Assembly: GCA_949130485.1 (NCBI GenBank)
Contig: OX422201.1
Location: forward strand, 4,004,516-4,068,515
Reading direction: 5' to 3'
Length of the DNA stretch: 64,000 nucleotides
From: Agelas oroides
Lineage: Eukaryota; Porifera; Demospongiae; Agelasida; Agelasidae
Part shown: in pieces, positions 13,741-64,000 of the stretch
Layout of the letters: each line of letters begins with the position of its first letter
How positions within the stretch are numbered: position 1 is the first letter of the stretch
Notes under the pieces: model-generated
Databases searched by the model: none
Told to the model about the DNA's origin: nothing
Seen by the model: only the letters and a program-made list of their open reading frames with translations
Position numbers and translations under genes: made by a program

Positions 13741-16408
13741 GATGATGAAGGTAGCCCGAGTGCAGACACTTGTTTTGACACGGAGCGACACGCTTGCTCT
13801 CAGCCTATTGCTTTCCCGATCCCTTTCAGTCAACGTACATGTAAAATGCCTTCTACTTTTAATAAACCAGTATTACTTCGTAAGTTTTGCGAACTTGACG
13901 GAGAGTTGTCATGAGTTATCATAAGGCTTTTGAGTTTGAGAGTCAAAAAAAGAGTCTTCACAAGATCAGGGGACAACATAGACAACATGCAGAGCCAGGA
14001 CAAACACAGAGGCTGGCTGGGAATAAGCCAGAAAGTATACTCTCATAAGCCAGGCCCAGTACAGGACGCTTACTATAGGCCTTTGGAGAATTATGTCAGC
14101 AATGCAGCCTAAATCTGAGCATAATACATGCGTGTATAAATACACTCCTATGCTGCATGCATGCATGTGCATAACACAATGTTGTCAGCAACTATCGCTT
14201 TGTGATTGTGGTGTCCATTTTTGATATTCACAAGCATCACAAACTTGATGTAACAATATTACCGCAGACATGTACACAACTTCATAATTACTTCCAATCC
14301 AGCTAGTTCCACTGATCACATTTGTAGTGAACTCAGTTCCTTGGGTCAGAGGTCATTAATTACCACAGAAATTTGGACTTGCATAATCAAAGAACATTTT
14401 TGTTCAAAGCACAAGTATCTTTCCATGAATAGGAGGGAGAGAATAAAGAAACAACAAAGCACTAATACAAAAAGCTTGGATAGAGTGTGCAATGGGGTGA
14501 CAGTTTGATAATAATATATTATGTGGATGGGAATAAGCACACATTTATCAAAGTCTGCTCAGTTGATTAAAATTCACTTTTCCCATTAGTGATAAGTACA
14601 GCCAGTACAGCACAAGGAACACATGCAGTAGTTGCTTCATACCTGCAGGGTACATGGGAAATATAAGGTGAATTGTCCAGTTAGTGGGGGGTGTATTTTG
14701 TGGCTGATGCAGAAATCGTATGAGAAGCTATGGTGGCTATAGTCACTGGAAGACACCCTAGTGAGTGATTCCATGGAGATAATAGTGTCCTTTTCCACTC
14801 CAAACATCTAATTGTATAATCCGAAAGCAGGTTGAATCATTCATAATGCACACACACACATGCACGTCCCTGTACTAGCCTTGTTCCCATGCCTGAAGAG
14901 GAGGAGGAGAAAGGGCCTGGTTTCAGCCATTCGGGCATACACCTAATTATTACTGACCCTGTTCATCAGTGGCAGAGTGCTAATGATGCCGTAAAGTCAC
15001 AGGACCGATTATATGACATCATGTTTACTGTCGAACTAGGTGAAGTGACTATGGTACCTACCAATAGTGAGCATGAATAACTTCTCAAGCAGCTGCAAAA
15101 GCTGAGTTACCGTCATCTAGTGAGTCAATTCTTGTTAATCCAATTATCTACAGTCCCGGAGTAGGTTTTCTAAGACCTATTGTGATTGGTCAGAAGGGAT
15201 GATGTTATTATGATGAGTTAATAATCATAGAAACAAGAAGCAAGAGTCACAGAAACACAAGAAACACGAGTCTAATCTTGGGGAAGAAGTTCGGTTCCTG
15301 TGAATATAATCTAGTGGAGGCCAGATTTGAAATTATTTTGTCTACTGAATAATGATGGTAGCTGTAGCTATGTACTGCAAGTCAGTGCAAGTCTAAACTT
15401 TGGTTAGTATTGTTGTGCACATAGGACAGGCTGTCCTTTGATTGCTTTTCTACACTTGGGGTGTGGCTACCAGAAAAATCGAGTCATTACTCCAGTCCAA
15501 TATAGTCAAGTCATTATTCAAGAGTCCAAGAGTTTATTACAGCTGGATGTGCAACTGCCACACCCATGCACCATCTGGACAATATCACATAGCAATCAGC
15601 AGTAAATATGCTAAGCTGTGAAAGCACAGCAGCAGAGAGGCAGGGTTTTGCCACAGCTAATACACACTATAGTACCTAGAATTGCTTCACGTTAAGTACT
15701 TGCTAAGCATTCACTGCTGATGACCTATATAGCTACATCATACCCTCCAGCTAGATGGTGGGGTGTAGAAACCCTATGGGAGTTGCACACTTGTACTCAA
15801 ATGAGACTTGTTGGGCATTAGGGCTAATAAGTATTGGCAGCTAATAAAGTTGGTTGACTCTATTTAATAGCGGGAAATTTGCAGTGGTCATAAGCTTGCA
15901 GCGTGTGCACTTAAAGATCTGGTAGCTGCTAGCTACTCTTGGAGGAATTCGGCTGGCTGTTATGTTGGAAGGTTCTATTTTCAGTCACTGTTTGTGGACC
16001 TCTCTACCACTTGAGCATGCTGACAAAAGTACACTCAAAGGTTGTTCAAAGGTAAGATGTGATGCATGAGGTTCACAAGTAAAGTATAGTAATGTGTATG
16101 CAGACATAGCAAAGTTGTCATAGTACTAATTCTGTATAATCCACAGAATGTTTATTCCTGAGAGTTCCAGGTTTATTTGCCTGTGATGGAGGAAAGACAT
16201 TTGGTATTATTGATAACCTCAATGAATATGCAGAGACACAATTTAATAAACCACAGTTTATGGTCCATAAACAGTCATGATCTTTGCACATTGGGCTTAT
16301 GGCCATAAATCCCTGCTAACTTGGTAAATTTGCAATAACGAGCATTCAGTGTGAGTGGTAACAATGGCTCTGATTTTTTTGAGTGGGTAACTTGCCAATT
16401 ATACTCTA
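13741..16408. other. Intergenic stretch without a supported gene
   Basis: Only short unconnected ORFs on both strands. One degraded terminal motif of the CTAGCCTTGTTCCC family occurs at 14876. I see no exon chain, RNA gene or transposon coding region. Confidence 0.5.
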
Positions 16409-19276
16409 TCACTTGGAGTACCATAACATTTTGGAGTACTTCAGCAGTGAACGTACTGACCCTAGCATGGACTTTTCTTCTGTCTTAAGGTGGTGAAGAA
16501 AGACAACAACGGCATGGAAGAGATTGTTTCGTCCCTGAAAGGGTAGATGAAGATACAATAACCAATAGATGATATACAGGCGAAGACTAGGCTCATTAAA
16601 ACGAAGAACCGTTTACAGTGACTGAACTGTTATCTGAAGGAATTAGGTCTGCTGAGATAGGAGCACTCTAAAGATGAAGGTTCTAACACAACACTGCACA
16701 CATTTTGACAAAGACTTACCTGGGGTAGATCAACACAAACGTCTTTGAGAAGGACCTGCATAATGTAAATTTTCCATTTCAATATAGCAAATGGGCCGGC
16801 ATGTTGGAAAGTGCATAGCATATTGCAAGCTGTCCAAGTTCTTTTGAGATTACCTTGTACTGTGGAGGGTTAGGTGATGCCTGGTATATGCACACATCTA
16901 CCTTCTTTGCAGCTGAAAGGGAAACGATGAGCACTGTTAACGCTTGCTATAAACTTGCTGTATATATTACAGATGTCTTCGTTGTACTATCAGGCTAGGG
17001 CCTATGCAGTTGCATACACAACCCAAGCTAGTACTTGCAGAATGGAGGGGACAATGAAGTTTGTTCTCAAGCATGACCGTAAGCTAGTAGTCTAGCCTAT
17101 AACTTCATGCCATGCCAGTGTGCAAGTTGAACTGCAATTTAGCATGCATGGGTGACTTACCCAGTCTAACTGCCTGAAGAAAGAATAATGAACGAGACAA
17201 ATATATAAGCCAGTTAGGCTGTGTGCTCACTGACTGTAGAGATTCTGCTCTTTGGTTCATGTATCATATACCTCCAGCAAGGACAACATATCTTTACAGT
17301 AAAACCTCCGAACAAAGGACACATTGGGGACGGGCCATTTGTCCCTTGTAGAGAGGTTGTCCTCTTCTCGGAGGTTTTCTTTTAAACCTATTGGAAAGTC
17401 CTAAATGACAAATAACTAACACTTAAGTCTTTTTAAAATGATGTATTCTGTCCATATATTTCAATTTTTTTCAATTGCAAGATGGCAAGAGCAAAGAATG
17501 ATTGCAATTATGACAACAGTAACAAAATAAACACTCGATTGTGCGTAACCGCTCATTTGCAAGTACAGTTGAAAGCTGCGTATCCGGAATATCGGGAGGT
17601 ATACGGTATCCGTTATGGGCATTCTGTATACTTCCAGTAGGCGTGGTAACATGTGCTCGGGCTGTTGAACACGATGAGGTCGCATTTTCGGACCTCTTCG
17701 TTGCTGTACCGTGGCGAGAAAGGCTAGCGCAATAAGCAGCAGTGCTAATATAATGGCCGGTCTTTGAATCCAGTGATGGTGGCGCACAATCTTACGAAAG
17801 CCGTCGATCACTGTCCGTTTTCGGAGGTAATTTTGTATTGGCTAAGGTACGTCTGGGGCTCATCAGTGTCTGTTGTTCGGAGTTGAGGTGTCCGCTTCTC
17901 GGAGGTTCGAAATGTAACCTTTGATACTACTCAGTACATAAGGTACAAGGACAACACTGTACTTTGCTCCAGTGATGAATCATATGTCTAGTATATTATG
18001 TTGGTACCGGGTTTGTCAGGGAATTTTAGGAGATACTGGCTGGAGAAGGGTCTACCATCCAGGGGCATATGGCTATCCAGGTAGGTACACAAGAGGTGCA
18101 TCACTATCTGCAAATAATAAGGAAACCCAGGTGATGAGAGTAATACACTCTAGATGCAACTAGTGTGTTGTGTCTTGCTAGCTATAGGCTAAGTGCTTAG
18201 GTATGTGGCCCCTGAAAGGAAGGTATACACAGTCACGGTCCTACAGTTGGTCCTATGTATGCATCTATTATGAAAGGCATCAAGGTATCAATTGACTCAG
18301 GCTCAGTTACATTAGTAACAAGCATAACCACCTTCAGGGATTGGTTGGCATCAACTGAAAACTATTAAAAAAAATTCACAATAAAAGGAGTTTAAATTTC
18401 TCAGCATGAATGCACTACAACGTATTAAAGTACCTGTGAGTCATTTGGTAAGTCCTGATCCCAGGTCCTTCCCTTCCATACCCCTCCAGAGTTCCATCGA
18501 TAAGCACTAATATAGCAACCTTTGGCAAGCTCTATAGACAAACCATTCACACATAATTGGGGATGATGAGACAAGATTCCCATAATGTTTCCGTGGGCCT
18601 TTTTTGAACTAAATACGCCTGCCAATTTTGCTGTAGCTACTAGTCATGCTGCTATGCAAGCCCACCTATAGGCTAAACTAGCTGTCTTCATGCACTCAGG
18701 TAGGCATGCATGAATACTCAATGAACCACGTCTCCCCGAAAGAGGGCCGATCTTAATGTTAGACAATGTCACCCCACTGTGCATAATACATTTCAGCTAA
18801 TATCTGGCCTCATTAGCTGTAGTGGATTGACCATGAAAGAAAGACAGTCAAGCACCTGGCCTGATTCATATATCAGCACACCATATGACTGACACAGATG
18901 ATCTGCAACTAGATAAGATCACCTTTTATTCTTTGCACAAGGTATTCCTGCTTTGCTGAGAGCTCTAAATAAGGAATGACCATCCCCAGAGTGGGCACAT
19001 ACTGCACCTTGGACTTAGACAACTGCCGAAGAGTCCCAAGCCCAGTAGCTGCAAGATAAACAGATTCAAGTACACTTACCTACCAGTACACAACCATTAA
19101 GTAACAAGCAAATCCTCAATACACACACTGAAAGCTCAGAAAGTGCTTGATGTTAGTAGCACTATGACAGCATACCTCCTATTTGTAGGTCAGGGATACC
19201 AATCATGCAGAGTGTTTCATTGGTAATCTCAATTTCTGTTGCCACTGCATGGAACCACCACAGTTTGTGCCAACCA
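16409..19276 (-). CDS. Unrecognised multi-exon gene, 5' part missing
   Basis: Reading down the minus strand, exons 19176-19276, 18923-19048 and 18434-18630 join in phase (1, 1, 0) with good sites. They encode a segment including WFHAVATEIEITNE, GLGTLRQLSKSK, YVPTLGMVIPYLEL and SSKKAHGNIMGILSHHPQ. Three downstream exons also chain together: 16854-16912 (AKKVDVCIYQASPNPPQYK), 16720-16755 (VLLKDVCVDLPQ) and 16409-16534, which ends at TGA (16409-16411). One linking exon between 16912 and 18434 is not identified, so the two groups could belong to different genes. I do not recognise the family; no signal peptide or membrane segment is obvious. A Tigger-like MITE occupies the gap. Confidence 0.52.
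17297..17914. mobile_element. Tigger/pogo-like MITE
   Basis: The left end CAGTAAAACCTCCGAACAAA and the inverted right end carry the CAGT...ACCTCCGA...GGACA pattern typical of pogo/Tigger termini. Both ends are flanked by TA (17295-17296, 17915-17916). The interior holds a 116-codon minus ORF with two hydrophobic stretches and no transposase motifs, probably fortuitous. Confidence 0.6.
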
Positions 19277-20719: not shown

Positions 20720-21260
20720 ATGCTGGATATGCCATCCCCTGTTGCTGCTGTTTCGTTTTGTAGTCACGTCACAAGTGTACACAAGTCAATGAAGGCAAAA
20801 TGCTCTGAGAGCCAACAGTACAAAAAGCTTGAGAAATATCTGGGTCAAGCTGAGGAAATTGTTAACACTAGTGTCTCCTGTGATGCTACTTGGCAGCGAA
20901 GGGGATTTGCTTCCTCGTAAGGAGCTGTCTTTGAGCTTACAGGACTAGTACTGGACTACAATACAAATTCCATATCAGGACTTGTCCTAGTGTAGAGTTT
21001 CATTTATTCTGGGAGCAGCATCAACATCAGTGTGAAGCCAACTACACAGGAACTTCACCATCAATGGAAGCACATGGTGCTGTTGCTTTTTGGAAACAAT
21101 CACTCGATTACAATCTCGGCTACCTCACTTTTATTGGAGATGGAGATAGCAAATCTTTCAAAAGCATTAGTGAAGCTGAGCCATATGTGTACCTGAATAC
21201 AAGGTTGTAAAAAGTGACAGTGTTGGTCATGCACAAAAAGCAGTACATTAATATGTCACT
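20720..21260 (+). pseudogene. Broken Mutator-like transposase domain
   Basis: The frame ending at 20920 encodes VNTSVSCDATWQRRGFASS, which matches the D-(A/G)-TWQ(R/K)RG block of animal Mutator-like transposases. After a stop and a frame change, 21001-21210 encodes CEANYTGTSPSMEAHGA and then TFIGDGDSKSF, the characteristic GDGDSKSF catalytic block, followed by a remnant of the VGHAQK motif in yet another frame. Stops and frameshifts show that it is dead. Family assignment is from memory of conserved motifs, not a search; the same block might be filed under Kolobok-like groups. Confidence 0.7.
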
Positions 21261-21366
21261 TTGGCATGGTTGACAAATGAACTTGAATGATGAAATCTCC
21301 AGCAAGAGCACAAACTTGCAAGCTGTTTAACTCATCCAGTGCTCTACTAGAAAATGTACAACATTG

Positions 21367-21961
21367 TGGGGGCGAGCCTGAGCAAGCTAATACAGGAACA
21401 GTGTTATATCACTGATGTAACACATCATGTCAAGCATCCTCCTACATGCACATCCATTCACCATTCACAGTGGGGTTTAAAAGTGCTTTTGTTTTAAAAA
21501 AAAAAAAAGTCAAATGAAAAACCATGCTATGCATATATACACAATCATAATGCATAACAGTGCCAGGGGCGAAGATATGTTCAAATCATGAACTGAGTCT
21601 CCGACGTATATGAGTGCCATTTATGCACGGACCTTACCCGACCGAAATCGGACTTCAACCATCGACATTGTCCATGATTTACACCGTTGTGAGCAGCCTG
21701 CTGTTGAAGGTCTGTAGCTGTACAAACCACACATGATTAAGTTGCCATGCGTGCTTCAACTTCAGTCGTCTTCGCTTCAGGTCGCCGACGCTGCACTCTG
21801 GCTGTACCTTTGCCTTCACTTACCAAGTACACAAGGACGTTCCAAAGCTTCGTAAAATACTTACTGCGTTAATTTAAAATTTACGGTATATGGCCGCAAG
21901 CAAACCGACAGACAGACATACACACGCATTTTTGCAATGCAGTCCCGCTAGGCGAGCCCCA
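21367..21961. mobile_element. Element with GGGGCGAGCCTGAGC-type termini
   Basis: The left terminus GGGGGCGAGCCTGAGCAAGC and right terminus GCAGTCCCGCTAGGCGAGCC (then CC) are inverted. The interior shares TCGCCGACGCTGCACTCTGG and TATGGCCGCAAGCAAAC with 37505-37793. Confidence 0.5.
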
Positions 21962-25104: not shown

Positions 25105-25106
25105 TA

Positions 25107-26238
25107 GAGTAAGTTAGCAATCATCGGACGACAGGTATATTCGGACACTCAAACGCGGAGGGAAAACTGCGTAAACATTCGGCGATACCACAAGACTGTA
25201 GCTGAGATACGTGGTACCTGGTGTACCGAAAATGACGCCCGCGCATTGTTTCCTGTTGGCGCTAGAAGCGATAAAATGGCCGTCCGAAAAACATCAATAT
25301 TCGGAAAAGTGTATGTATTTTCAGACACTGTTGTTTGTGCCTTCTCTGAAGCTGCTTTTGGAGAGATTTTAGCATCGATACGATGCCCCAAGACCTCCCC
25401 AATTCGCAATATATTTTGGTAGCGGTAGCTGCTTTGAACACTCAGGGGCGTAGCTGAACATGGACCAGTCCGATCGATCAATAATCGGACGGTGAAATTT
25501 GTCATTTCTTGCTGTGTTGTCTCCAAACATGTTGAAGTCTCCACCATATTAGCATCAGTAGAATATACAGGCTCTTGGCTACATGCTGGTATTTGTCCGG
25601 TGTTTGTGCGTTGAGTAGTTCTCGAGATATTGCACGATATCGTTTGAACTCACCTATTTATGCTGCACATAAATCAACCAGCGTACTTTATGGAAAGAAA
25701 CATGAAATATATTTATATCTCGAGAACTACTCAACGCACAAACTCCGGACAAGTACCAGCATGTAGCCAAGAGCCTGTATATTCTACTGATGCTAATATT
25801 GTGGAGACTTCAACATGTTTGGAGACAACACAGCAAGAAATGACAAATTTCACCGTCCGATTATTGATCGATCGGACTGGTCCATGTTCAGCTACGCCCC
25901 TGAGTGTTCAAAGCAGCTACCGCTACCAAAATATATTGCGAATTGGGGAGGTCTTGGGGCATCGTATCGATGCTAAAATCTCTCCAAAAGCAGCTTCAGA
26001 GAAGGCACAAACAACAGTGTCTGAAAATACATACACTTTTCCGAATATTGATGTTTTTCGGACGGCCATTTTATCGCTTCTAGCGCCAACAGGAAACAAT
26101 GCGCGGGCGTCATTTTCGGTACACCAGGTACCACGTATCTCAGCTACAGTCTTGTGGTATCGCCGAATGTTTACGCAGTTTTCCCTCCGCGTTTGAGTGT
26201 CCGAATATACCTGTCGTCCGATGATTGCTAACTTACTC
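25107..26238. mobile_element. 1.13-kb fold-back element with about 520-bp inverted arms, flanked by TA
   Basis: The left arm (25107 to about 25633) and right arm (about 25718 to 26238) are nearly identical reverse complements, separated by about 85 bp. Outer ends are GAGTAAGTTAGCAATCATCG inverted, each flanked by TA (25105-25106, 26239-26240), the target preferred by Tc1/mariner-type transposases. Each arm carries the same outward 132-codon ORF (minus 25149-25547; plus within 25660-26196), which resembles no family I know. GTCCGA/TCGGAC motifs recur in the arms. High arm identity suggests recent formation or gene conversion. Confidence 0.8.
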
Positions 26239-26594
26239 TAACTGGCTTTAGTTCGACCACCCCTAAAAATTAACCCCAGTCTACTCTCAAGCCCTCAGTA
26301 GTAGATATATGACGTTAGTCAGGTTAAAAGAAAATAGAATCATCTCTATGTACACATAAGCTACTAGGCATAGGATGTGGGGTATATTGACCACAGCTCA
26401 TGCATTTGGGGTTTCATCAGAAAGAAACAGAACACTACAGAGCAGCACTTTCGCAGTATTACGCATCAGTATGGAAATATAAAGGGGGATTGAAAGCCTA
26501 GGAAATTCAATCACATTCTACAAAATCATTCCTTACATCACAATAAATAAATTTGTATCTTTATTTTATTATAAATGTGTCCCCCCAGGGGGGA

Positions 26595-26779
26595 ATAGGC
26601 CACTCCCAGTGGTACTGCAATACTGGGGCAACCCGTGGGACAGGCGAAGCAAGCTTCACTCCTAGTCCCCCTTGACAAAAATTGGAGTAATGTCAGGGGT
26701 ACGTGACCCCATACGAGACATTACGCTCGTAAGAACAGTTTATTTCTACTTGATCTTAGCCAAGAGGCCGAGAAGCGAT
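26595..26779 (-). ncRNA. U2-like spliceosomal snRNA with altered branch-point recognition region
   Basis: Reading minus from 26779, the RNA starts ATCGCTTCTCGGCC and continues TTGGCTAAGATCAAG, matching the U2 5' end that pairs with U6. Canonical GUGUAGUAUCUGUUCUU is replaced by GUAGAAAUAAACUGUUCUU. Stem IIa is ACGAG/CUCGU, a compensatory change relative to the usual AUCAG/CUGAU, with the loop UAAU kept. GUAAUGUC still pairs perfectly with downstream GACAUUAC (stem IIc). Stem IIb is GGGGU/ACCCC. The Sm site is AAUUUUUG, then the conserved loop GCUUGC, then GUAUUGCAGUACC of stem-loop IV. Length is about 185 nt, close to the usual U2. The exact 3' end is uncertain. It is either a divergent functional U2 variant or a decayed copy; compensatory pairs and a TATA box favour function. 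Confidence 0.85.
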
Positions 26780-26803
26780 GGTTCAGCTCTCTCAGGCTGC
26801 TGC

Positions 26804-26810
26804 TTTTATA
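26804..26810 (-). promoter_or_regulatory. TATA box of the U2-like gene
   Basis: TATAAAA on the minus strand spans -31 to -25 relative to the U2-like start at 26779, the expected spacing. I see no confident proximal sequence element further upstream because the sponge consensus is unknown to me. Confidence 0.6.
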
Positions 26811-43252: not shown

Positions 43253-45723
43253 GTTATGAAAGCAGAAGGACAGAGTCGACAAAGAGAAGTGAAGTGGGGA
43301 GGGGGGAAGAAGTAGAGTGGATGCATAGTCCAAGGGAGTACATAAACAAAATGAAGTGCAGGAGTGCTAAGTACATAGTAACTAGTGTACAGCTCTTATC
43401 TTAGAGGGAGTCCAGCAAATTATACGATCTCCACCGTTTGGAAACATACCTAAGTAAGCATCAGAGATGTGTATGTATGTGGGAGAGAGAAGCACTTGCA
43501 AGGACAGGTTAAGTTTTACAAAGTTAGAAGATAGTACAGTAAAGCAAGACAAAAATGAGGATTGAATGGTAGAAAGGTAAAGAGGATATAGACCAAGAAA
43601 CAAAGGCTGTTAAAATACAGTGAAAACAGACCTCATTAGTCAACAATGATTCAGTTGAGGATGTAATACTCTATGAACTGTTGTACAATAAATTTTTTAC
43701 ATATGATAAATTCCATGAGCAATGCAGTGAATGTGCTGTTGTGGATGCAGAAGGTATAGGCATTTGTCTGAAAGGGAGTATGATAAAAAGTCAGAATTGA
43801 GTGTCTGAATGTGGCAAAAGAAGTCGTTTCTCGGTTCAGTCAGAGCACGACAGTGGAACAGGAAATGCTCTTGATCTTCAATGCCATCATTGCAGAGTTT
43901 ACAAATACGCAAATGCAGAGGCGTCTTTGGGGAAGTATAACGCCCTAATTCAATTTGTAGGGGGAGACAGCCAGCCCTCAGTCCGGCCAACACCCTCCGA
44001 ACACCCAATGACAGTGATGCTCTACAATAGGGTTCAGTCTCAGGAAAATGTTTTATTTGCCTATATAGTGCAAGTTTCCCCCCACTCTCAGATGAGGAGG
44101 CCTCCACATTATTAATCGATTGAAACCAGTTATGCAAAAGCTTGTTGGCCAGTGCATCCCACAGGCTGTCATAAAATTTACTGGATTGTAGGCTATTAGG
44201 AGTAGAGACATGTAAATCTAATCCATCTAAAAGATCACTGGTATGTGAGGCCCACGTTACTTTACCTGAATTAGAAAGGCTGCGGCTCCAGAGGAAGGCT
44301 TGTTTGGGAACTCTTTCTGAGGGCATAGAGCATAGCCTAAACCAATATTTCAGCATGGTGAACTGCAGGTGTAGTTGAATGGGAGGCCAGCCTGAATCCC
44401 CAAGTAGTGCTGCTAGAGGGGCAGAAGTACCTAAGCCAAAAAAGAATCTCAACGCATTATTCTGGATTTTACCTAGAGGCTGTTATTTCCTATGAGCCCA
44501 AATATGTGCAGAGTATGTAGCTACATATGGGTATGACACAGGCATCAAACAGACAGCTAAAGACAGACAAAGGGAACCCATGAGCTGTTTTAGCCTTGGC
44601 AATCAGAACTCCTAATGCACGGTTAGCACAATCATATACTCTTTGAATAGACTCATCAGCATCCAGAAATTCATTAAGGAAGTAGCCTAGATAAAAAACA
44701 GAGTCAGATAAAGCTTTCCTCTTGTGTCGGAAGTGTATGACCTTGGTTTTGCTGGGGTTGACTTGGATTTCCCAGGTATAACACCACCTATGAACTACGT
44801 CCAGCATGGCTTGTAAATCCTCTTCCTTATCAGCATTTATTACAATGTCTTCAGCATACAGGAGAGAAGTAAAGAGTATACGTCACATTGTACTCCTTTC
44901 CCCAAAACCTTAATGTCACCCACAAGATCATTGACGAACATTGAAAACAAAGTAGGGGACAGTTTTACTCCACAGTTGATATCAAACCACTCTGAGAATT
45001 TACCATTTATTTTGACACAACTAGAAACTTGAGAGTAAAGGGCTTTAACGAGCTTAAGAAAGGGGCCACGTACACCAAACTGTGTTTGCATTTTGTCCCA
45101 CAAAAACTTTCTACAGATGGAGTCAAATGCTTTTCGAAAGTCTATAAAGCAGGCAAAAGTGGATTTACCAATTGATTTTTTGCCCTCAAGGATGGTGTTT
45201 AGAGTAAAGATATGGTCTTGGCAACTACGACCTCTACGGAAACCGTTTTGCTCTTCAGCTAACAGTTGATTATATTCTAGATTATCTGATAATCACTTAA
45301 ACGGGTGTTGAGGATAGAGCAGAGAATTTTCATTACAGAGGACTGGATTGAAATACATCTATAGTCTCCGGGTTCAAGGGACCTTCCACTGGACTTTGGT
45401 ATAGGTTGAATGATACTTTGTAGCCATTGACTAGGCACTTTCCCATGTTGAAGGCAAGTGTTAAAAAAGGAGAGCATGAACTGAACACAAAGGTCATTCT
45501 TTAAATAGGAAATATTAACGTCATCAGGACCTAATGCAGAATGACAGTTCCTATTGGATAGGGCAGACAGTATTTCTTCCTGAGTGATGGGGTCATTCAG
45601 GAAGGAATTTGTTATGTCACTCACGGCAGGAGTACTGCAGGATGGATCTACAGGGGATGCGTGCCCCCGCAGCCAAAAAATAAATAAAAAATAGCTGGGA
45701 GGTCTCTTCTTAGCTGTGATCAT
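42436..45723 (-). mobile_element. Decayed non-LTR retrotransposon (LINE), reverse transcriptase region
   Basis: Minus frames in order: 45277-45723 (LGPDDVNISYLKNDLC, VPSQWLQSIIQPIPKS: RT blocks 0-2), 44840-45280 (NGFRRGRSCQDH, CFIDFRKAFDSI, GVKLSPTLFSMFVNDL), a frameshift near 44880 with the active site read as YAED instead of YADD, 44490-44807 (VNPSKTKVIHFR), then 43697-44452 (ALLGDSGWPPIQLHLQF and a late CKLCNDGIEDQEHFLFHC zinc motif). Frameshifts and stops make it inactive and 5'-truncated. A minus-strand A24 run at 43229-43252 and an (ATTG)n tail at 42437-42455 are both candidate 3' ends, so the last 0.8 kb may be another repeat. Clade looks CR1/L2/jockey-like; not certain. Confidence 0.8.
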
Positions 45724-46158
45724 CGGCAGTAGGATTCTGATTCACATGGAGTGCTGAATGAGTAGTCTTGTTCCCAGGCTCCCGCCCAGCTGGCAGTACG
45801 TATACTGCAAACGATGGAAAACTGGGGAACGAGGCTAGTCATTTCAGACGGATTCTGCGTCGCGTATGAACTTAGCTGCGCGAACGTGCCGCAGGCAGCA
45901 CGGGCTTCGTCACAGTAAAGGAATGGCCGTCGAGTAAAAATCCTAACACAACGTTGCCTTTTTGTCAGTGAAATTTGTACGATGATGGGCAGCCGTTTTC
46001 CAAGACGTGTATTCAAAGTGCGCATGCATGTGCGCGTTTAGTCTGCGAAAAAGTGGTCGGGCCAAAACCCGACCAGCCCGACCGCTTGCTACGGCATATG
46101 ATCAGCTACATGGTCAGGGAAGTTGAACGTTGATGTTTTTCACCTCTTGTCTTTTCAG
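45724..46158. other. Short spacer with one family hairpin
   Basis: 45760-45838 is an imperfect palindrome with ends TAGTCTTGTTCCCAGG and GGGAACGAGGCTA. The flanks show no 9-bp duplication. Confidence 0.55.
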
Positions 46159-48435: not shown

Positions 48436-48857
48436 ATATCCATGAACCATCCATGAATGGCCACTTTGACTACTTACTCACTTACTCTGACCATCCATGA
48501 ACCATCCATGGGTGGACACCTTGCCTGAATATCTATGGATGCCACAGTTACTGTGTCCATCCATGGATGGACACCTTGACTACTCACTTACCCTACTCTG
48601 ACCATCCATGGACCATCCATGGATGGACACCTTGCCTGAATATCTATGGATGCTACAGTTACTGTGTCCATCCATGGACCATCCATGAACCATCCATGAA
48701 CCATCCATGGATGGACACCTTGACTACTCACTTACTCTACCCTGACCATCCATGGACCATCCATGGATGGACACCTTGCCTGAATATCTATGGATGCTAC
48801 AGTTACTGTGTCCATCCATGGACCATCCATGGATCACCCATGGATGGACACCTTGCC
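48436..48857. repeat. Minisatellite built on CCATCCATGGATGGACACC
   Basis: Units alternate TGAATATCTATGGATGCYAC and TACTCACTTAC spacers with runs of ACCATCCATGG. It is open in one frame but clearly low-complexity. An oppositely oriented array lies at 51345-51650. Confidence 0.9.
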
Positions 48858-50193
48858 TAATGTACTTTTTTATGTCAGAGTATCTGTGAATACCAAAGAC
48901 TTTAAGTCAATGATGATACATAGTAGAATGACACTTATCACAACATCTTACATATGCATTTAAAGCTGTAAGTGATTGTACATTTATGTTAAGTAAAAGA
49001 GAAAGTGATACAAGTGATGCAAGTGTACTTAGGCAATCATGATAATAGCTTCCCACAGATTTCTGTGTCAACATGCATTTGAAAGGTACCTCTTGCCATT
49101 TATATGTTGTAGTAAAGTAATCATTAAACTTTTTATCAACCACAAAAAAAGTGTGCAAAGAGAAGGAATTCAATTTGTTACAAATTCTAATAAGAGACTG
49201 TGGTGGAAAACAGCATTACTGGTTGGTAAAGACTTAACACTCTACTAGTGTCATTTCCTTTATTGGACTAAACTTTTCCCACTGCTTATGCACAAAACTA
49301 ACTGCTAGCAAACAGAAAGCCAAAACATGCAGCACGCGAAAGCCTTCCTCAGATTCAGTACCATCTATAAAGCTGGTATGACAACACAAAAACTCCAACA
49401 ATAGTAAGTATGAATATATGTACAAGTCCAGTCAAGCTCACTAAAAGAATGCATCACAGTTCTGATGACACCATTGGTCTGTGTGGCCCTTAAAATAAGT
49501 CTTGTCAATTACTATGTTTAGTGTGGCAAAGTGTACAATGGTTAATGTTTGGCTGGCATGTCCGGATTGCTGACATACTTCATGAACTCTATCTGTGACA
49601 TTCTGTATTGCGTAGTTCATACTATGGGAGTGATGAAGTGGCTATATGAAGTATGCAGTCATAAATACATTCCTCCATGAGAACAAAGAAGCAACAAGCC
49701 ACATTCATAAGTTTGTGTTAATTGTATCATAAACAATTGTGGAACCTGGTGTGGATAGAAATGGGCATATGAAGTTCAAGCAGAAATTCTTATGCTAAAT
49801 GTAATAGGGGTCTTAACCTAGAGCCATTAATTCACATGCCCATTTATAGTAAAACCTGCGATTTAGACTACGCACCAAACAGCTAATGATCATCACCATT
49901 GTCCCACAAGGCCATACAACTCAAGTGATATTATGTATGATTTGTTATTTTATACACCATTTCTGATGCTGCCATAACTGATGTAGCTTGCTTGGATTAG
50001 GACCATCTAAGAGCTAGAGTAAGCCGTAACTACCATGTACGATGGAACATTCCTACATAAAGCCAAAGCCATGAAAGGACTCACCTATATATCAAAAAAA
50101 GTACCGATCATTTAGCCAGTGCCAAGATATCTGAAGCCCAATGTCCTTAATTCTACTCTACATCTGATCCTGCTTTTCATCACCACAGCTCTC
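48858..50193. other. Stretch without supported gene
   Basis: AT-rich; only short ORFs, no splice-consistent chain, no repeat recognised. Confidence 0.5.
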
Positions 50194-54021: not shown

Positions 54022-55210
54022 GTGGCTAGCTACCCAGGAAGAACCTACTTACCTGGCTACACCACTTGATCTATATCTCAGAGAGAATGACCAGGTGGTA
54101 GGTTAACGTTGTGTTTACCTTGGTCAGGGATGTTTAAGCAAGGTAGAGCTTCAATCTTAGACATTGATTCTTATTGTGTACAGTTAGTGTGCTGGTATTA
54201 ATGTGTTCTGTTTCCATTCTCTTCCACAACAGCTGTTCCCTGTATTCCTCTTCATTTTCCAACTTTAGTTCCAAGATCTGTGCATACTATGGCTAATTTT
54301 TCATCCAAGAATGTGGAATCTAGTGACGCCAATTATTTTTCTCTTAGCAACTGGAAGCAGATGTCCGTGGAGCTGTTTTAAGCTTTGCTGCCTTTTGTCC
54401 CAGAAGGGAGGTGGCTGTTGTCCTGGAGTATGGTAAAGCTTCAAAGTGTGTACCACTTGCACTTGCTAGAGCTTTCAGAAAGGTTAAAAAAATACAAGGT
54501 GTGTTGCTACTATAGCTAACAGAAATAAGGTGATACCTTATTTTCCTGGCACAGGTCATTCTGGTAAACTTCCAATACAGATACAAAAGCCATGGCAGAT
54601 GTGTTACAACATGGTGGTAAATTATACAGAAATGACCCTCCATCCTTATGCTGTCCTCGACCAGGATCCTGACCAGGTGAAACTTAACTACAGTGTGCAC
54701 AATTGTGTGGGTTTTAATGTACGTATTTCCTATATACAGTACAAGGAATTTACTGATGAGATAAAGTACATTTGGAAAGGGCAAGCTCCGCTTCCTGCAA
54801 CCAGTGGTCTGAAGGTGTCAATGGAGTTTGACCCAACCACTGTTAAGCTCCAGGATGACGTCAAGGTGGAAGTCAGTGGAGCAGCTCCACCCACTGGACA
54901 AGCTACATCACCAGGACCAGCTCTGCCCATTGGACAAGCTACATCACCAGAACCAGCTCTGCCCACTGGCCAAGCTACATCACCAGGACCAGCTCTGCCC
55001 ACTGGACAAGCTACATCACCAGGACCAGCTCTGCCCACTGGACAAGCTACATCACCAGGACCAGCTCTGCCCACTGGACAAGCTACACCACCAGGAGCAG
55101 CTCCAACCACTAGACAAGTTACACCCTCTAGAAAAGCTTCACCTCCAGATATATGCTGTAACAATATAGAGTATTGTTGTCTTACGGCACATAAGTATAC
55201 TACGCATTAG
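54022..55210 (+). CDS. Unrecognised protein ending in 12-residue tandem repeats (3' exons)
   Basis: Exons 54022-54094, 54348-54498 and 54555-55210 (TAG) chain in phase with good GT-AG sites. The product reads WLATQEEPTYLATPLDLYLR, then EADVRGAVLSFAAFCPRREV, then GHSGKLPIQIQKPW, then a probable beta-rich segment (LNYSVHNCVGFNVRISY), then about six GQATSPGPALPT repeats and a Cys-containing tail (DICCNNIEYCC). The repeats are Pro/Ala/Thr/Ser-rich, like linker or mucin-like segments. Upstream exons are missing. No family is recognised; phase agreement across two introns and a 218-codon final exon support a real gene. Confidence 0.58.
54890..55110 (+). repeat. 36-bp coding minisatellite, about six units
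   Basis: Unit CCCACTGGACAAGCTACATC followed by ACCAGGACCAGCTCTG. It is open in the coding frame, in a second plus frame (LDKLHHQDQLCP) and on the minus strand (VGRAGPGDVACP), as expected of a 3n-length repeat without stops. Confidence 0.9.
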
Positions 55211-59071: not shown

Positions 59072-59290
59072 TTAACATCTGCATTCGCTAAACTACACAT
59101 GCACCAGTGACTAGCTAAGACAACCCACCAACATCCATGTCCAGTATTTGCCGGGAGGTAGCTGTTGACAGGACTATGCCCCTGCTTCCACCACTAATCA
59201 CCAGGGGCATACCCTCAGGCCCCGCTTGGGGGACAATGCTGGGAGCCTAGTTCTTGTTACTCCCCCTCAGGCTATCCAGCATCCCACCAA
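59072..59290 (-). repeat. Ngaro terminal direct repeat B2
   Basis: 219 bp, starting TTAACATCTGCATTCGCTAA and ending ATCCAGCATCCCACCAA on the plus strand. Identical to 59551-59769. It begins directly after the 9-bp duplication of the preceding palindromic element. Confidence 0.9.
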
Positions 59291-59550: not shown

Positions 59551-59769
59551 TTAACATCTGCATTCGCTAAACTACACATGCACCAGTGACTAGCTAAGAC
59601 AACCCACCAACATCCATGTCCAGTATTTGCCGGGAGGTAGCTGTTGACAGGACTATGCCCCTGCTTCCACCACTAATCACCAGGGGCATACCCTCAGGCC
59701 CCGCTTGGGGGACAATGCTGGGAGCCTAGTTCTTGTTACTCCCCCTCAGGCTATCCAGCATCCCACCAA
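59551..59769 (-). repeat. Ngaro direct repeat B1
   Basis: 219 bp identical to B2. Followed on the ORF side by about 270 bp of apparent 3' untranslated sequence before the recombinase stop codon. Confidence 0.9.
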
Positions 59770-60038: not shown

Positions 60039-61076
60039 TCACTGTTCAGCCAAGCTTGACAACTGTTTTGATAGCCCTGCCAGCCTGTCCCGTGGCACCC
60101 TGACGTACGAGAGGTACGCTGTACTCTCCCACCTGCCCAATGTCTTGATCAGCGAATCCTCAATCCCCACTGCAGCCGCTGTGGTGGCTGCCCCAATTCT
60201 GAAGCTATGGCCTGAGTACTGTGTGATATCCACACCAGACGGCTGCAGTGCCTCCCTCATCCGCTTCACTAACATTTCTCTTGAGAGAGGCGCCCCCGAA
60301 GCCAACCGAAAGAATGGACCAGGGGACTCACCCCTCACTGCAAGGTATGCTGTCACTGCCCCCACTGGACATAGAATGTTGTCTGTCCTCCCAAGGTAGA
60401 CCATCACCCCCTTCCTGAATGGATCAGTCTTCGATGCTTTTATGTGTATTTGCACTACCTTTGGAGATGCCAAACTATCCAAGGTCACATCGCCTGCACT
60501 GAGGTGACAGCCCGGATCATAACTCTTCATGGATGGCACTGTGACCTCTCCGGACCGTAGAAAACCAAAAAAGCAGGTGCAGCAAGCTGCCCACAACATG
60601 ATATTGTCAGCATTGTGCCTGTCCCTCTCCCAGGATCTCCTCAAGTGCCTCAGCATGTTGGGAGTAATGGGTAGTCTGGACTTTGAGCGGGTAGCCGCGC
60701 TCTTTGCCTGCCTTAGCTTGATGCCCTTCAGGGTGCATTCTAACAGGGGCCAGGAGGCCACAAAAGGATCTCCTAACCCCTGCACTATCTGTAGCCGCCG
60801 TATAGCTGACAAGTACCCTTTAATTGAGGTATGCTTGAGGCCTTCATCAGCTAAGTGAGCAACAAACAAGCACAGACGACTCTCTGTCAGTGGTAAGGGT
60901 GGTGAATTTGAGTTATTACAGAACATTAGGTACCTCCTTTGGCCAGACGCATACACCCTTGCTGTAGACGGGGCTATTGAGGCTTCGATAAAGCCCTTAA
61001 CCAGCCCCTCCAGTCGTCCGATGTCCAGTTTTTCTGCACCACCAGCTGTTCCACAAGGTCTTTTGGGACCTGACAT
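60039..61076 (-). CDS. Tyrosine recombinase of the Ngaro element
   Basis: 345 residues. It would join circular element cDNA to genomic DNA. Residues 20-120 look like the core-binding helical domain (ASIAPSTARVYASGQRRYL, then LADEGLKHTSIKGYLSAIRR). The catalytic domain shows the first Arg in FFGFLRSGEVTV, a probable Lys in HIKASKTDPFRKG, the H-x-x-R box as GHSFRIGAATTAA, LGRW in place of the second His, and the nucleophile in STAYLSYVR. The set R-K-H-R-(W)-Y is complete. The ORF overlaps the end of the RT ORF by about 100 bp in another frame, so expression probably needs frameshifting, reinitiation or a separate message. The start at 61076 is the first Met; the true N-terminus could be within the overlap. 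Confidence 0.88.
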   Translation of the reverse strand: MSGPKRPCGTAGGAEKLDIGRLEGLVKGFIEASIAPSTARVYASGQRRYLMFCNNSNSPPLPLTESRLCLFVAHLADEGLKHTSIKGYLSAIRRLQIVQGLGDPFVASWPLLECTLKGIKLRQAKSAATRSKSRLPITPNMLRHLRRSWERDRHNADNIMLWAACCTCFFGFLRSGEVTVPSMKSYDPGCHLSAGDVTLDSLASPKVVQIHIKASKTDPFRKGVMVYLGRTDNILCPVGAVTAYLAVRGESPGPFFRLASGAPLSREMLVKRMREALQPSGVDITQYSGHSFRIGAATTAAAVGIEDSLIKTLGRWESTAYLSYVRVPRDRLAGLSKQLSSLAEQ

Positions 61077-62767
61077 GCTGTCCGTGGAGCCTGAGGAACG
61101 AGATCAAAGAAAACTTCTAGCTTGTTTCTGGAGATAGCATCAGCAGCCCCATTGTCCACCCCTGCAAGGTGAATTGCCGTTAGTGTTATGTCAAACTTTG
61201 CCTCTAAGAAAAATAAGCAACGTAACATGTGGGCCATTGCTGGGTCCTTACAATAACCTCCCTTTATTGCCACTACCACTGACTGGTTATCACAGTGACA
61301 CAGAACGGTTGATCCTTCCCAACCTGATCCCCAAATTGCCGTGGCTACAATGATAGGCAATAATTCCTTGGCTGCAATCGATGTGGTGGCAAATCCAGGC
61401 CACTCACACCATGCTACCTGAAACCACTGCGTGCCCCACAGGGCTCCACAACCCCATGAGCCGGAGGCATCACTCCAAATCTCAACTCCTGGTGTCTGCC
61501 AACTCTCCTTCAACATCATGGAAATACCATTCCACGAACCTACGAATGTGTTCCACCATTCCAAATCTGCTCTGAATGCTGCATTCAGTCTGATCATGTG
61601 ATCCTGCCTTCCAAACTGTGAAATCAGACCAAAAATCCCCCTGAGAAACCTCCTCCCTGGCCTTACAACCTTGCACGCATGGTTCAAGTGCCCTGCCAAT
61701 GACTGTAGTTCTCTCTTTGAGCAGCCCTTGCGCTTCCTCCAACTACCCACCAGCTGTCTCAGTTTCTCTAGCTTCTCAGGCGGAAGTCTTAGTTGTAGCC
61801 CCTCAGAATCCAGCTCTATTCCCAGCAGCGGGAGCAGAGTTGAGGGACCCATTGTCTTCTCCTCTGCCACCGGCATACCAACCTCCCCACACGTCTCCAA
61901 TGCCACCTTAAGGTCTCTGCTGCACTCGTCTGACTTTGGGGGACCAAGCACCACAAAATCGTCCAAGTAGTGATCCAACCATCCTACACCCTTCTGCTTA
62001 ATGATAAATGCCAGAGCGTCCGCCACTGCATTGAAGATCATGGGGGCAGATCGTAGGCCAAATGGCAAGGCTGCATCCACAAACAACTGATCCTCCCATA
62101 CCATACCTAGTAGCCACCGGTCATCTGGGTGAACTGGGACATTCCTATAGGCTGCCTTTAAGTCAAACTTTGCCATGAGTGCTCCCTTACCCAATTGCAC
62201 TACCCTTGCTGCAACCTCGTCAACTGACATGTACGACAGTGAGCAGAGCTCCTTGGTGATACCATCGTTCACACTGCCTCCCTCTGGGGACGACAAATCC
62301 AGTATCAGCCGCCATTTTCCTGGTCCGCTCTTGGGGATCACTCCCAGGGGGCTCACATGCACTTCAGGCATCTTGACTCTCTGGAATGGGCCCAGTAACC
62401 TCCCTGCTCCTCTCTCTCCTTGAATGTACTTTGCCACCACTTCCTTCTGGTCTTTAACCGACTTGAAATTGCCTGATGCTTGTCGGCAATGGGCACTTCT
62501 GTAGTTAAAACCCACTCGGAATCCCTCCCTGATCCCCTTGCACACATACTCTGCAAACCCCCTATCTGGGTGACATAGTAATCCCTTCTCCCATGCGGAG
62601 ATCCGGAGTGGGGAGGTGATGGTTTCCCACTCCCTTCCATGCACCTGTGCTGTCAATGGAGTGCACCGCGCAAGTGCCATCAATGAACTTGAATCCGGGT
62701 GCATCTCCCTTGAGCCACCTGCAATGCGAAGACTACACTTTATAAGGGCCCCTTCCCCCTTTAACAC
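60974..62767 (-). CDS. Reverse transcriptase and RNase H of the Ngaro element
   Basis: 597 residues. It would copy element RNA into DNA. RT motifs: KWRLILDLSSPEGGSVNDGI, LMAKFDLKAAYRNVPVHPDD (first catalytic Asp), LPFGLRSAPMIFN, then HYLDDFVVLG (LDD active site) and LLGIELDSEGLQL. RNase H follows from about residue 430: EIWSDASGSWGCGAL, AAKELLPI, LCHCDNQSVV and a final DAISR carry the D-E-D-D set. The order RT then RNase H, and the YLDDF/FDLKAAY style, are typical of DIRS-group elements. No methyltransferase domain is seen, which fits Ngaro rather than DIRS1. No stop or frameshift interrupts the domains. Initiation at 62767 is the first Met; about 300 bp separate it from the gag ORF. Confidence 0.9.
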   Translation of the reverse strand: MLKGEGALIKCSLRIAGGSREMHPDSSSLMALARCTPLTAQVHGREWETITSPLRISAWEKGLLCHPDRGFAEYVCKGIREGFRVGFNYRSAHCRQASGNFKSVKDQKEVVAKYIQGERGAGRLLGPFQRVKMPEVHVSPLGVIPKSGPGKWRLILDLSSPEGGSVNDGITKELCSLSYMSVDEVAARVVQLGKGALMAKFDLKAAYRNVPVHPDDRWLLGMVWEDQLFVDAALPFGLRSAPMIFNAVADALAFIIKQKGVGWLDHYLDDFVVLGPPKSDECSRDLKVALETCGEVGMPVAEEKTMGPSTLLPLLGIELDSEGLQLRLPPEKLEKLRQLVGSWRKRKGCSKRELQSLAGHLNHACKVVRPGRRFLRGIFGLISQFGRQDHMIRLNAAFRADLEWWNTFVGSWNGISMMLKESWQTPGVEIWSDASGSWGCGALWGTQWFQVAWCEWPGFATTSIAAKELLPIIVATAIWGSGWEGSTVLCHCDNQSVVVAIKGGYCKDPAMAHMLRCLFFLEAKFDITLTAIHLAGVDNGAADAISRNKLEVFFDLVPQAPRTACQVPKDLVEQLVVQKNWTSDDWRGWLRALSKPQ

Positions 62768-63069
62768 CCTGTTCCTAATGACCTTCTGGACTGACTCACT
62801 GCTGAATGGTTTGGAGTCACACTTGACCTGGCAAGTGGAGCAGCAGGATCAGCCCATCGGGTACGGAGACTACGGACCTACAAGGCTCTTCCCCCCCCCC
62901 CGAAATTACCTAACTTGTATACCTATACCCCAATTCCCTGATGTTGTTCATGGGAGCCTGCTTGCCTAAGGTGATACAGATAAACCTCCAGAATCTTGAC
63001 ACAGATAGTATACCAGATGCAACCTAGACTTAATAGTCCATCACACATGCGGGGTAATGATGTTCACAG

Positions 63070-63909
63070 TCATATCCGCTTCTGGCGCTTTCCCCATCCT
63101 ATCCCACTGGGGCATTGTGACTTTGGATGACTGCCCCGACACACTTCACACACGTGGGGGAATCTGCACGTTCTGCCATAGCTGCATGACCCCTCGTTAA
63201 ATTGCCAGCACACTGCTGGCCTCTTTGTGCCCCCCGGCAGCCCAACTCGCTTTCCGTCCCCCTGGGGCAACCCAACCGTCTTCCGGGGGCGTCCACCACA
63301 CACTTCCTGGTAAACCAAGACATCCATACCTGGCCACAACTTCATTCCAGTCGATGCCATTTTCTCTCGGTATGCTTCATCGTATAGGCGCCATGCCGGA
63401 TCCTCCACCTCCATGTAAGCCTTCAGCACCGTCAGCAGGTGGCTCATAAAGTCGGGTGTGCAGTCCGTAAATTTTGAGGACATCGCTGCCGTGTACCTAG
63501 CAAAACACTGGACCCAGGTGATGATGTTATTTATTGGCTTCTTCCTAGCCTGCGTTACCTCGAAACCTGGGAGGACGACCAGTTTTTCCGTGTCGCCCTC
63601 CATCTCCACTTTGTCCATCAAGGATCTTGGACGGAACTCCCCCAGATCCACAAATTCCCACCTCAACATCTTGTCATAGGTCCGTTTGGACAGTGAACCG
63701 AGTCCTTCCCCCAACCACACTTTCGCTGCTTTGGCTGGGCCTTCCAACATTGTAGACGTGTTGAGGAGTGCCATGAGGGATGAGGCCTGCTTTGCTGCTC
63801 GCACTGCAGGTGGTTCCTCTCCCTCTCCCCCACCTTTTGCCTCCAATGGAAACAGGGGTACCCCCGCGTCTGCTAATGCACCACCATCAGGGACATCCCC
63901 CAGGGACAC
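63070..63909 (-). CDS. Gag-like nucleic-acid-binding protein of the Ngaro element
   Basis: 279 residues. It probably packages element RNA. The N-terminal 60 residues are Gly/Ala-rich and low in complexity; residues 60-190 form a predicted helical region (WVQCFARYTAAMSSKF, MSHLLTVLKAYMEVEDPAWR). The C-terminus has a CCCH finger, CWQFNEGSCSYGRTCRFPH (C-x7-C-x5-C-x3-H), directly followed by a knuckle CEVCRGSHPKSQC (C-x2-C-x3-H-x4-C), then a basic end. This zinc array is common in DIRS-group gag proteins. Start at 63909 is the first Met; an earlier start beyond an upstream stop was not seen. Confidence 0.8.
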   Translation of the reverse strand: MSLGDVPDGGALADAGVPLFPLEAKGGGEGEEPPAVRAAKQASSLMALLNTSTMLEGPAKAAKVWLGEGLGSLSKRTYDKMLRWEFVDLGEFRPRSLMDKVEMEGDTEKLVVLPGFEVTQARKKPINNIITWVQCFARYTAAMSSKFTDCTPDFMSHLLTVLKAYMEVEDPAWRLYDEAYREKMASTGMKLWPGMDVLVYQEVCGGRPRKTVGLPQGDGKRVGLPGGTKRPAVCWQFNEGSCSYGRTCRFPHVCEVCRGSHPKSQCPSGIGWGKRQKRI

Positions 63910-64000
63910 TGTAACACAAAAAGAACAACACCAGTCACTGACCCACTGCGACTACCACTGAACCCACAAGAACTTGTTTGTGGGCCCTTATGTGCACCCA

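Follow-up and report, generated by a model that had tools for sequence, protein, structure and literature searches.

The window, that is, the whole 64 kb stretch of DNA analysed here, carries a full-length U2-like snRNA gene on its minus strand at 26590..26779, with nt 1 at 26779. The first-pass annotation had proposed a U2-like snRNA at this place, leaving the strand unstated, and had suggested a check against the Rfam U2 model; the RF00004 covariance model matches the gene over its full length (model 1–192 of 192, 26779–26590) at 127.2 bits (cut-off 46; E 1.8e-25), which rules out chance similarity to U2. This gene is the only match in the window at the Rfam gathering level, a permissive search of the window (E up to 1) gave 17 matches without any further spliceosomal snRNA, and no second copy of the gene was found in the 64 kb. 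Control genes were obtained with the pattern GGCTAAGATCAAGT-N5..14-CTGTTCTTA, in which the branch segment is unconstrained; it occurred in three stretches of genome contigs and in none of the viral contigs. A U2 model search of the three genomes containing these stretches gave four U2 places, referred to as controls L001–L004, of which two are ended by a contig edge on the 5′ side and one on the 3′ side; L003 lacks letters for stem IIc, and the IIc comparison covers four sequences. For scale, L001 scores 172.1 bits with RF00004 and the 5′-truncated L002 131.6 bits. The features of the gene and its flanks are as follows.

26803..26810, minus strand: TATA box TATAAAAG at −31 to −24
26590..26779, minus strand: U2-like snRNA gene (RF00004); last paired stem IV nucleotide is nt 183 at 26597, and the 3′ end near 26590 is approximate
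26748..26779, minus strand: 5′ U6-pairing region and stem I (nt 1–32), by alignment to L001, one change
26739..26747, minus strand: branch-recognition segment AGAAAUAAA (nt 33–41) replacing GUAGUAU, by alignment with the control U2 genes
26733..26755, minus strand: possible branch-interacting stem-loop (nt 25–47), weakly supported by folding energies
26712..26731, minus strand: stem-loop IIa (nt 49–68), two pairs changed on both sides relative to the controls
26687..26724, minus strand: stem IIc arms, nt 56–63 GUAAUGUC with nt 86–93 GACAUUAC, two pairs changed on both sides relative to the controls
26696..26710, minus strand: stem IIb (nt 70–84), GGGGU/ACCCC
26676..26683, minus strand: Sm site AAUUUUUG (nt 97–104)
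26637..26669, minus strand: stem III (nt 111–143)
26597..26634, minus strand: stem-loop IV (nt 146–183), loop AUUGCAGUACC at 26611–26621
26581..26593, minus strand: GC palindrome CCCCCCTGGGGGG immediately beyond stem IV

The gene resembles canonical U2 (RF00004) in its length, its U6-pairing 5′ region, stems I, IIa/IIc, IIb, III and IV, its Sm site and the loop IV motif. As had been claimed, the U6-pairing 5′ region is kept, with U16C as the single difference from L001 in nt 1–32, while CUGUUCUUA (nt 42–50) shows zero differences from the same control, and the 5′ end AUCGCUUCUCGGCC is presumably the animal form. Two of the features that mark U2 membership, the Sm site and a stem-loop IV with UAUUGCAGUACC, are present and agree with the earlier description of the Sm site and loop motif as kept; a T5 run sits inside the Sm site. 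Unlike canonical U2, the window gene has AGAAAUAAA for GUAGUAU (+2 nt), recoded stems IIa/IIc and a changed stem IIa loop, which had been listed among the kept parts but reads CGUAAUGU here against UUUAAUAU in L001, a change of three of eight letters.

Across eukaryotes, it is through GUAGUA that U2 base-pairs with the branch sites of introns. In all four control genes the flanked segment is AAGT-GTAGTAT-CTG, whereas in the window gene it is AAGT-AGAAATAAA-CTG; read from AAGT onwards, the four controls have GTAGTATCTG and the window gene has AGAAATAAACTG, which is 2 nt longer, so that the replacement of GUAGUA and the lengthening of this region by about 2 nt, both reported in the first pass, are borne out. 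It is because AGAAAUAAA replaces GUAGUA that the gene is called a U2-like variant rather than canonical U2. The flanked segments are separated by an edit distance of 5, and since 49% of random 9-mers need five edits or fewer, no remnant of GUAGUA is detectable; a GUAG tetranucleotide starts at nt 31 instead of nt 33, and this start, two nucleotides early, may be chance. The differences from L001 are clustered: of 14 in the 68 columns compared, 7 (including two gap columns) lie within a 9-column block that was picked post hoc (hypergeometric 1e-4). The five edits in the segment, against one change in the 32 nt before it and none in the 9 nt after it, suggest several steps and not one simple mutation. 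Formation of the branch-interacting stem-loop may still be possible around the branch loop, with folding energies of −1.7 kcal/mol for the 27-nt stretch of the window gene and −0.8 kcal/mol for its canonical counterpart of 25 nt, both very small and obtained with two extra nucleotides on each side; the shorter cores of 21 to 23 nt gave no fold. An A-rich branch-recognition segment is known from U12 snRNA, which is a likeness to the window gene, but none of the window's 17 Rfam matches at E up to 1 is U12, and U12 identity is thereby ruled out.

In contrast to the branch segment, which departs from the controls, the helices can all form: over stems I, IIa, IIb, IIc, IIIa, IIIb and both parts of IV, 50 of 50 pairs are standard and 45 are Watson–Crick, in an assignment made by eye, which favours the count. 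Stem IIa (6/6 pairs) has changed from UAUCAG/CUGAUA to UACGAG/CUCGUA, and the two compensatory pair changes claimed for it are present, one of them possible through a wobble pair: U-A (U-G in L001 and L002) to C-G could have had a wobble intermediate, and C-G to G-C could not. The complementarity claimed for stem IIc is likewise kept (8/8 pairs); here U-A to G-C has no wobble intermediate, and the second double change has one. The comparison across five U2 sequences is less exposed to this bias: 98.3% of the 58 cells of IIa and IIc are paired, a level reached by 1 of 500 shuffles, and four pairs are changed on both sides, as in 8 of 500 shuffles; when the IIa/IIc partner is slid, pairing falls to 29–46%. 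One IIc cell of L002 is unpaired, and one of the two IIc double changes is common in position to L002 and the window gene. Stem IIa is nearly the same in all four controls and IIc in two of the three that have letters there, L002 departing. The chance that all pairs survive four random substitutions is 0.012 for IIa and 0.0096 for IIc, starting from UAUCAG/CUGAUA and UUAAUAU/AUAUUAA, respectively. It has been reported, in the part of the source available, that stems IIa and IIc are mutually exclusive in working U2 (PMC8516221), and the keeping of both although each excludes the other suggests selection on the IIa/IIc switch. Together with the loss of GUAGUA, the earlier argument for selection on structure finds support in the Rfam match, the complete set of standard pairs, the IIa/IIc double changes and the comparison of the branch segment with the controls. 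The folding energy of the RNA is unremarkable (z-score −1.52; 13 of 200 shuffles fold as well), its minimum-energy fold contains IIc and differs from the U2 fold elsewhere, and stems I, IIa, IIb, III and IV are seen together only in the centroid fold.

Judged by its sequence, the gene would best be read as a divergent U2 paralogue in which the fold and the U6- and protein-binding parts have been under structural selection while the branch segment has been replaced, a reading to which we give an even chance of being correct. A recently disabled copy fits the same sequence almost as well: the IIa/IIc changes would have been inherited from the working U2 of the species, a complex local mutation would have hit the branch segment, and the stems would not have decayed; we regard this tentatively as a serious possibility. 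It is in line with the damage being confined to a single short segment of an RNA whose U2 helices can otherwise form, and snRNA pseudogenes occur in all metazoans studied except teleosts and birds, according to the available part of a review (PMC5493778). Against it, the segment needs five edits, which is beyond one simple event unless it was templated, and the near constancy of IIa in four controls and of IIc in two of three makes the two oddities easier to reach through long separate evolution. Should the main U2 of the species carry the same IIa/IIc changes, only the branch segment would be distinctive and the dead copy would become likelier; moreover, from a start such as L001 or L002, one IIa change is a single step off a wobble pair, which weighs against the paralogue. 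RNU2-2 was once annotated as a pseudogene, yet it is expressed and linked to disease (PMC13083260, partial text), so that divergence alone does not mean death.

The flanks bear on the same choice. The TATA box claimed upstream was recovered at 26810–26803, and a 12-nt slot of the window contains TATAAA at a frequency of about 0.003; the TATA box is the sole supported promoter element, which agrees with a dead copy. The human PSE upstream of the gene reached 8 of 12 letters at best, a score equalled by 41% of random windows, the human 3′ box reached 9 of 12 at best (27% of random windows as good), and the octamer is absent from 400 nt at the gene. A plant-type USE promoter was rejected, with a best match of 7 of 11 letters. 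Upstream sequence is available for two of the controls: in L003 a TATAAG lies at about −32, and in L001 TATA is missing from 70 nt. PSE together with TATA in human genes indicates Pol III (PMC5493778, in the portion available), and this, with the T5 run inside the Sm site, counts against the paralogue reading. Past stem IV, the GC palindrome might serve as a 3′ end signal or be fortuitous. An A-rich stretch lies 3′ of the gene; it also speaks for a dead copy and leaves a retroposed origin conceivable. A flanking duplication was not found, as no word of at least 7 nt is shared between 41 nt of 5′ flank and 121 nt of 3′ flank, which counts against the dead copy and for the paralogue, as does for the latter the absence of a second copy from the 64 kb. 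From these results, a SINE or retroposed copy is thought unlikely.

Other elements of the window were surveyed by a six-frame Pfam scan of 1–43.7 kb and, beyond it, of five open frames (43697–44479, 54488–55207, 60039–61100, 60974–62845 and 63070–63948). An inverted repeat at 25105–26240, with 94.8% identity over 1154 aligned positions, stops some 350 bp beyond the 3′ end of the U2-like gene; its two open frames gave no Pfam match, and it looks like a palindromic mobile element. A stretch resembling a Mutator-like transposase lies at 21013–21432 on the plus strand (PF20700, 46.8 bits). Open frames at 43697–45741 on the minus strand are LINE reverse transcriptase-like by eye, and in the single frame that was scanned Pfam found a weak zf-RVT match below cut-off (E 0.023) and nothing else. 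A tandem array at 48447–48859 has a unit based on CCATCCATGGATGG, and the plus-strand open frame at 54488–55210 encodes 240 aa with a 36-bp tandem repeat in 6.8 copies. A DIRS-like retroelement occupies 60039–63951 on the minus strand, with PF00078 reverse transcriptase and PF02899 tyrosine-recombinase N-terminal domains above cut-offs and integrase and CCCH zinc finger matches below them; two identical 219-bp direct repeats (59072–59290 and 59551–59769) adjoin it and are possibly its terminal repeats. The window is eukaryotic in look, and its gene and mobile-element content point to an animal.

The neighbouring gene at 16126–19276 on the minus strand encodes a CytochromB561_N domain (PF09786, 40.5 bits against a cut-off of 27.3) and is, we assume, TMEM209-like; seven GT donors and eight AG acceptors were read in it, in a part without the 5′ exons. 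For the eight acceptors, the best pairing score in 51 nt (−55 to −5) was compared with that of 2000 random windows. The canonical probes gave means of 3.69 against 3.77 (GUAGUA) and 4.19 against 4.27 (GUAGUAU), and the altered probes 3.75 against 3.70 (GUAGAA), 4.50 against 4.14 (GUAGAAA) and 4.19 against 3.74 (AGAAAU in fixed register). At these eight acceptors neither canonical nor altered branch pairing is clearly above random, and the excess of the A-rich probes could be explained by T-rich intron ends alone. A third explanation makes this gene the principal or sole U2 of the species, with a genome-wide shift in branch recognition such as trypanosomatids show. In the part of PMC4950102 available, Leishmania major U2 carries UUAUAA for GUAGUA, and canonical pairing is not favoured over background at the eight acceptors, a number that says little; the ordinary GT-AG introns of the neighbouring gene argue against it, as does Fritillaria borealis, which has non-canonical introns and retains the U2 branch sequence (PMC13326754, partial text). 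Such a change is highly improbable. The Leishmania RNA shares with the window gene the missing GUAGUA, but it is described as lacking stem-loop III and having an altered Sm site (AAUUACA), both of which are standard in the window gene.

The paralogue reading is also weighed down by the minimum-energy fold, by the unsupported PSE, 3′ box and octamer, and by the lack of any sign of a matching branch site at the eight acceptors. GUAGUA is the functional core of U2, which counts against this reading as well. Divergent copies are found among the variant U1/U2 paralogues of human (vU1), Drosophila and planarian, several of them expressed (PMC5493778, PMC4291461, PMC6312358, each available in part), though the Drosophila U2 paralogues are reported to vary at four positions only (PMC4291461). 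In mouse, the deletion of 5 bases in a U2 paralogue is reported to cause neurodegeneration, the site of the deletion being unspecified in the available source. A natural animal U2 without GUAGUA was not found in the literature searched, which was seen in part and consisted mostly of journals outside subscription.

If the paralogue reading is correct, the RNA would be transcribed from its TATA promoter, would bind Sm and U2 proteins to form a 17S-like U2 snRNP, and would pair with U6. The AGAAAUAA stretch might then, in keeping with the specialised variant proposed in the first pass, select other branch sites, namely UUUCUAAC if the shifted GUAG is used or AUUUACU if the register is fixed; alternatively, the AGAAAUAA snRNP might compete with normal U2 and tune splicing. 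That the animal possesses a dedicated second U2 snRNP (AGAAAUAA) for private UUUCUAAC- or AUUUACU-type introns, or a natural U2 competitor, is a bold extension and unlikely. An expressed U2-derived RNA might also act outside branch recognition, as a decoy of U2 proteins or as a splicing regulator in stem cells or the germline. This would suit an RNA that has kept its U6- and protein-binding parts and lost its intron-binding part, and planarian stem-cell removal lowers three U1 variants and one U2 variant; for two U1 variants specific splice-site use or dominant-negative action was suggested by the authors (PMC6312358, in the part available). From sequence, such a role is not separable from altered branch specificity, and we consider it quite improbable.

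If the gene is a pseudogene, it would be an instructive trap, in which helices and covariation are intact while the key site is gone. If the paralogue reading is true, a structurally maintained animal U2 without GUAGUA would be the natural counterpart of the branch-changed U2 RNAs made in the laboratory, and a division of branch-site specificity among U2 variants would become directly testable.
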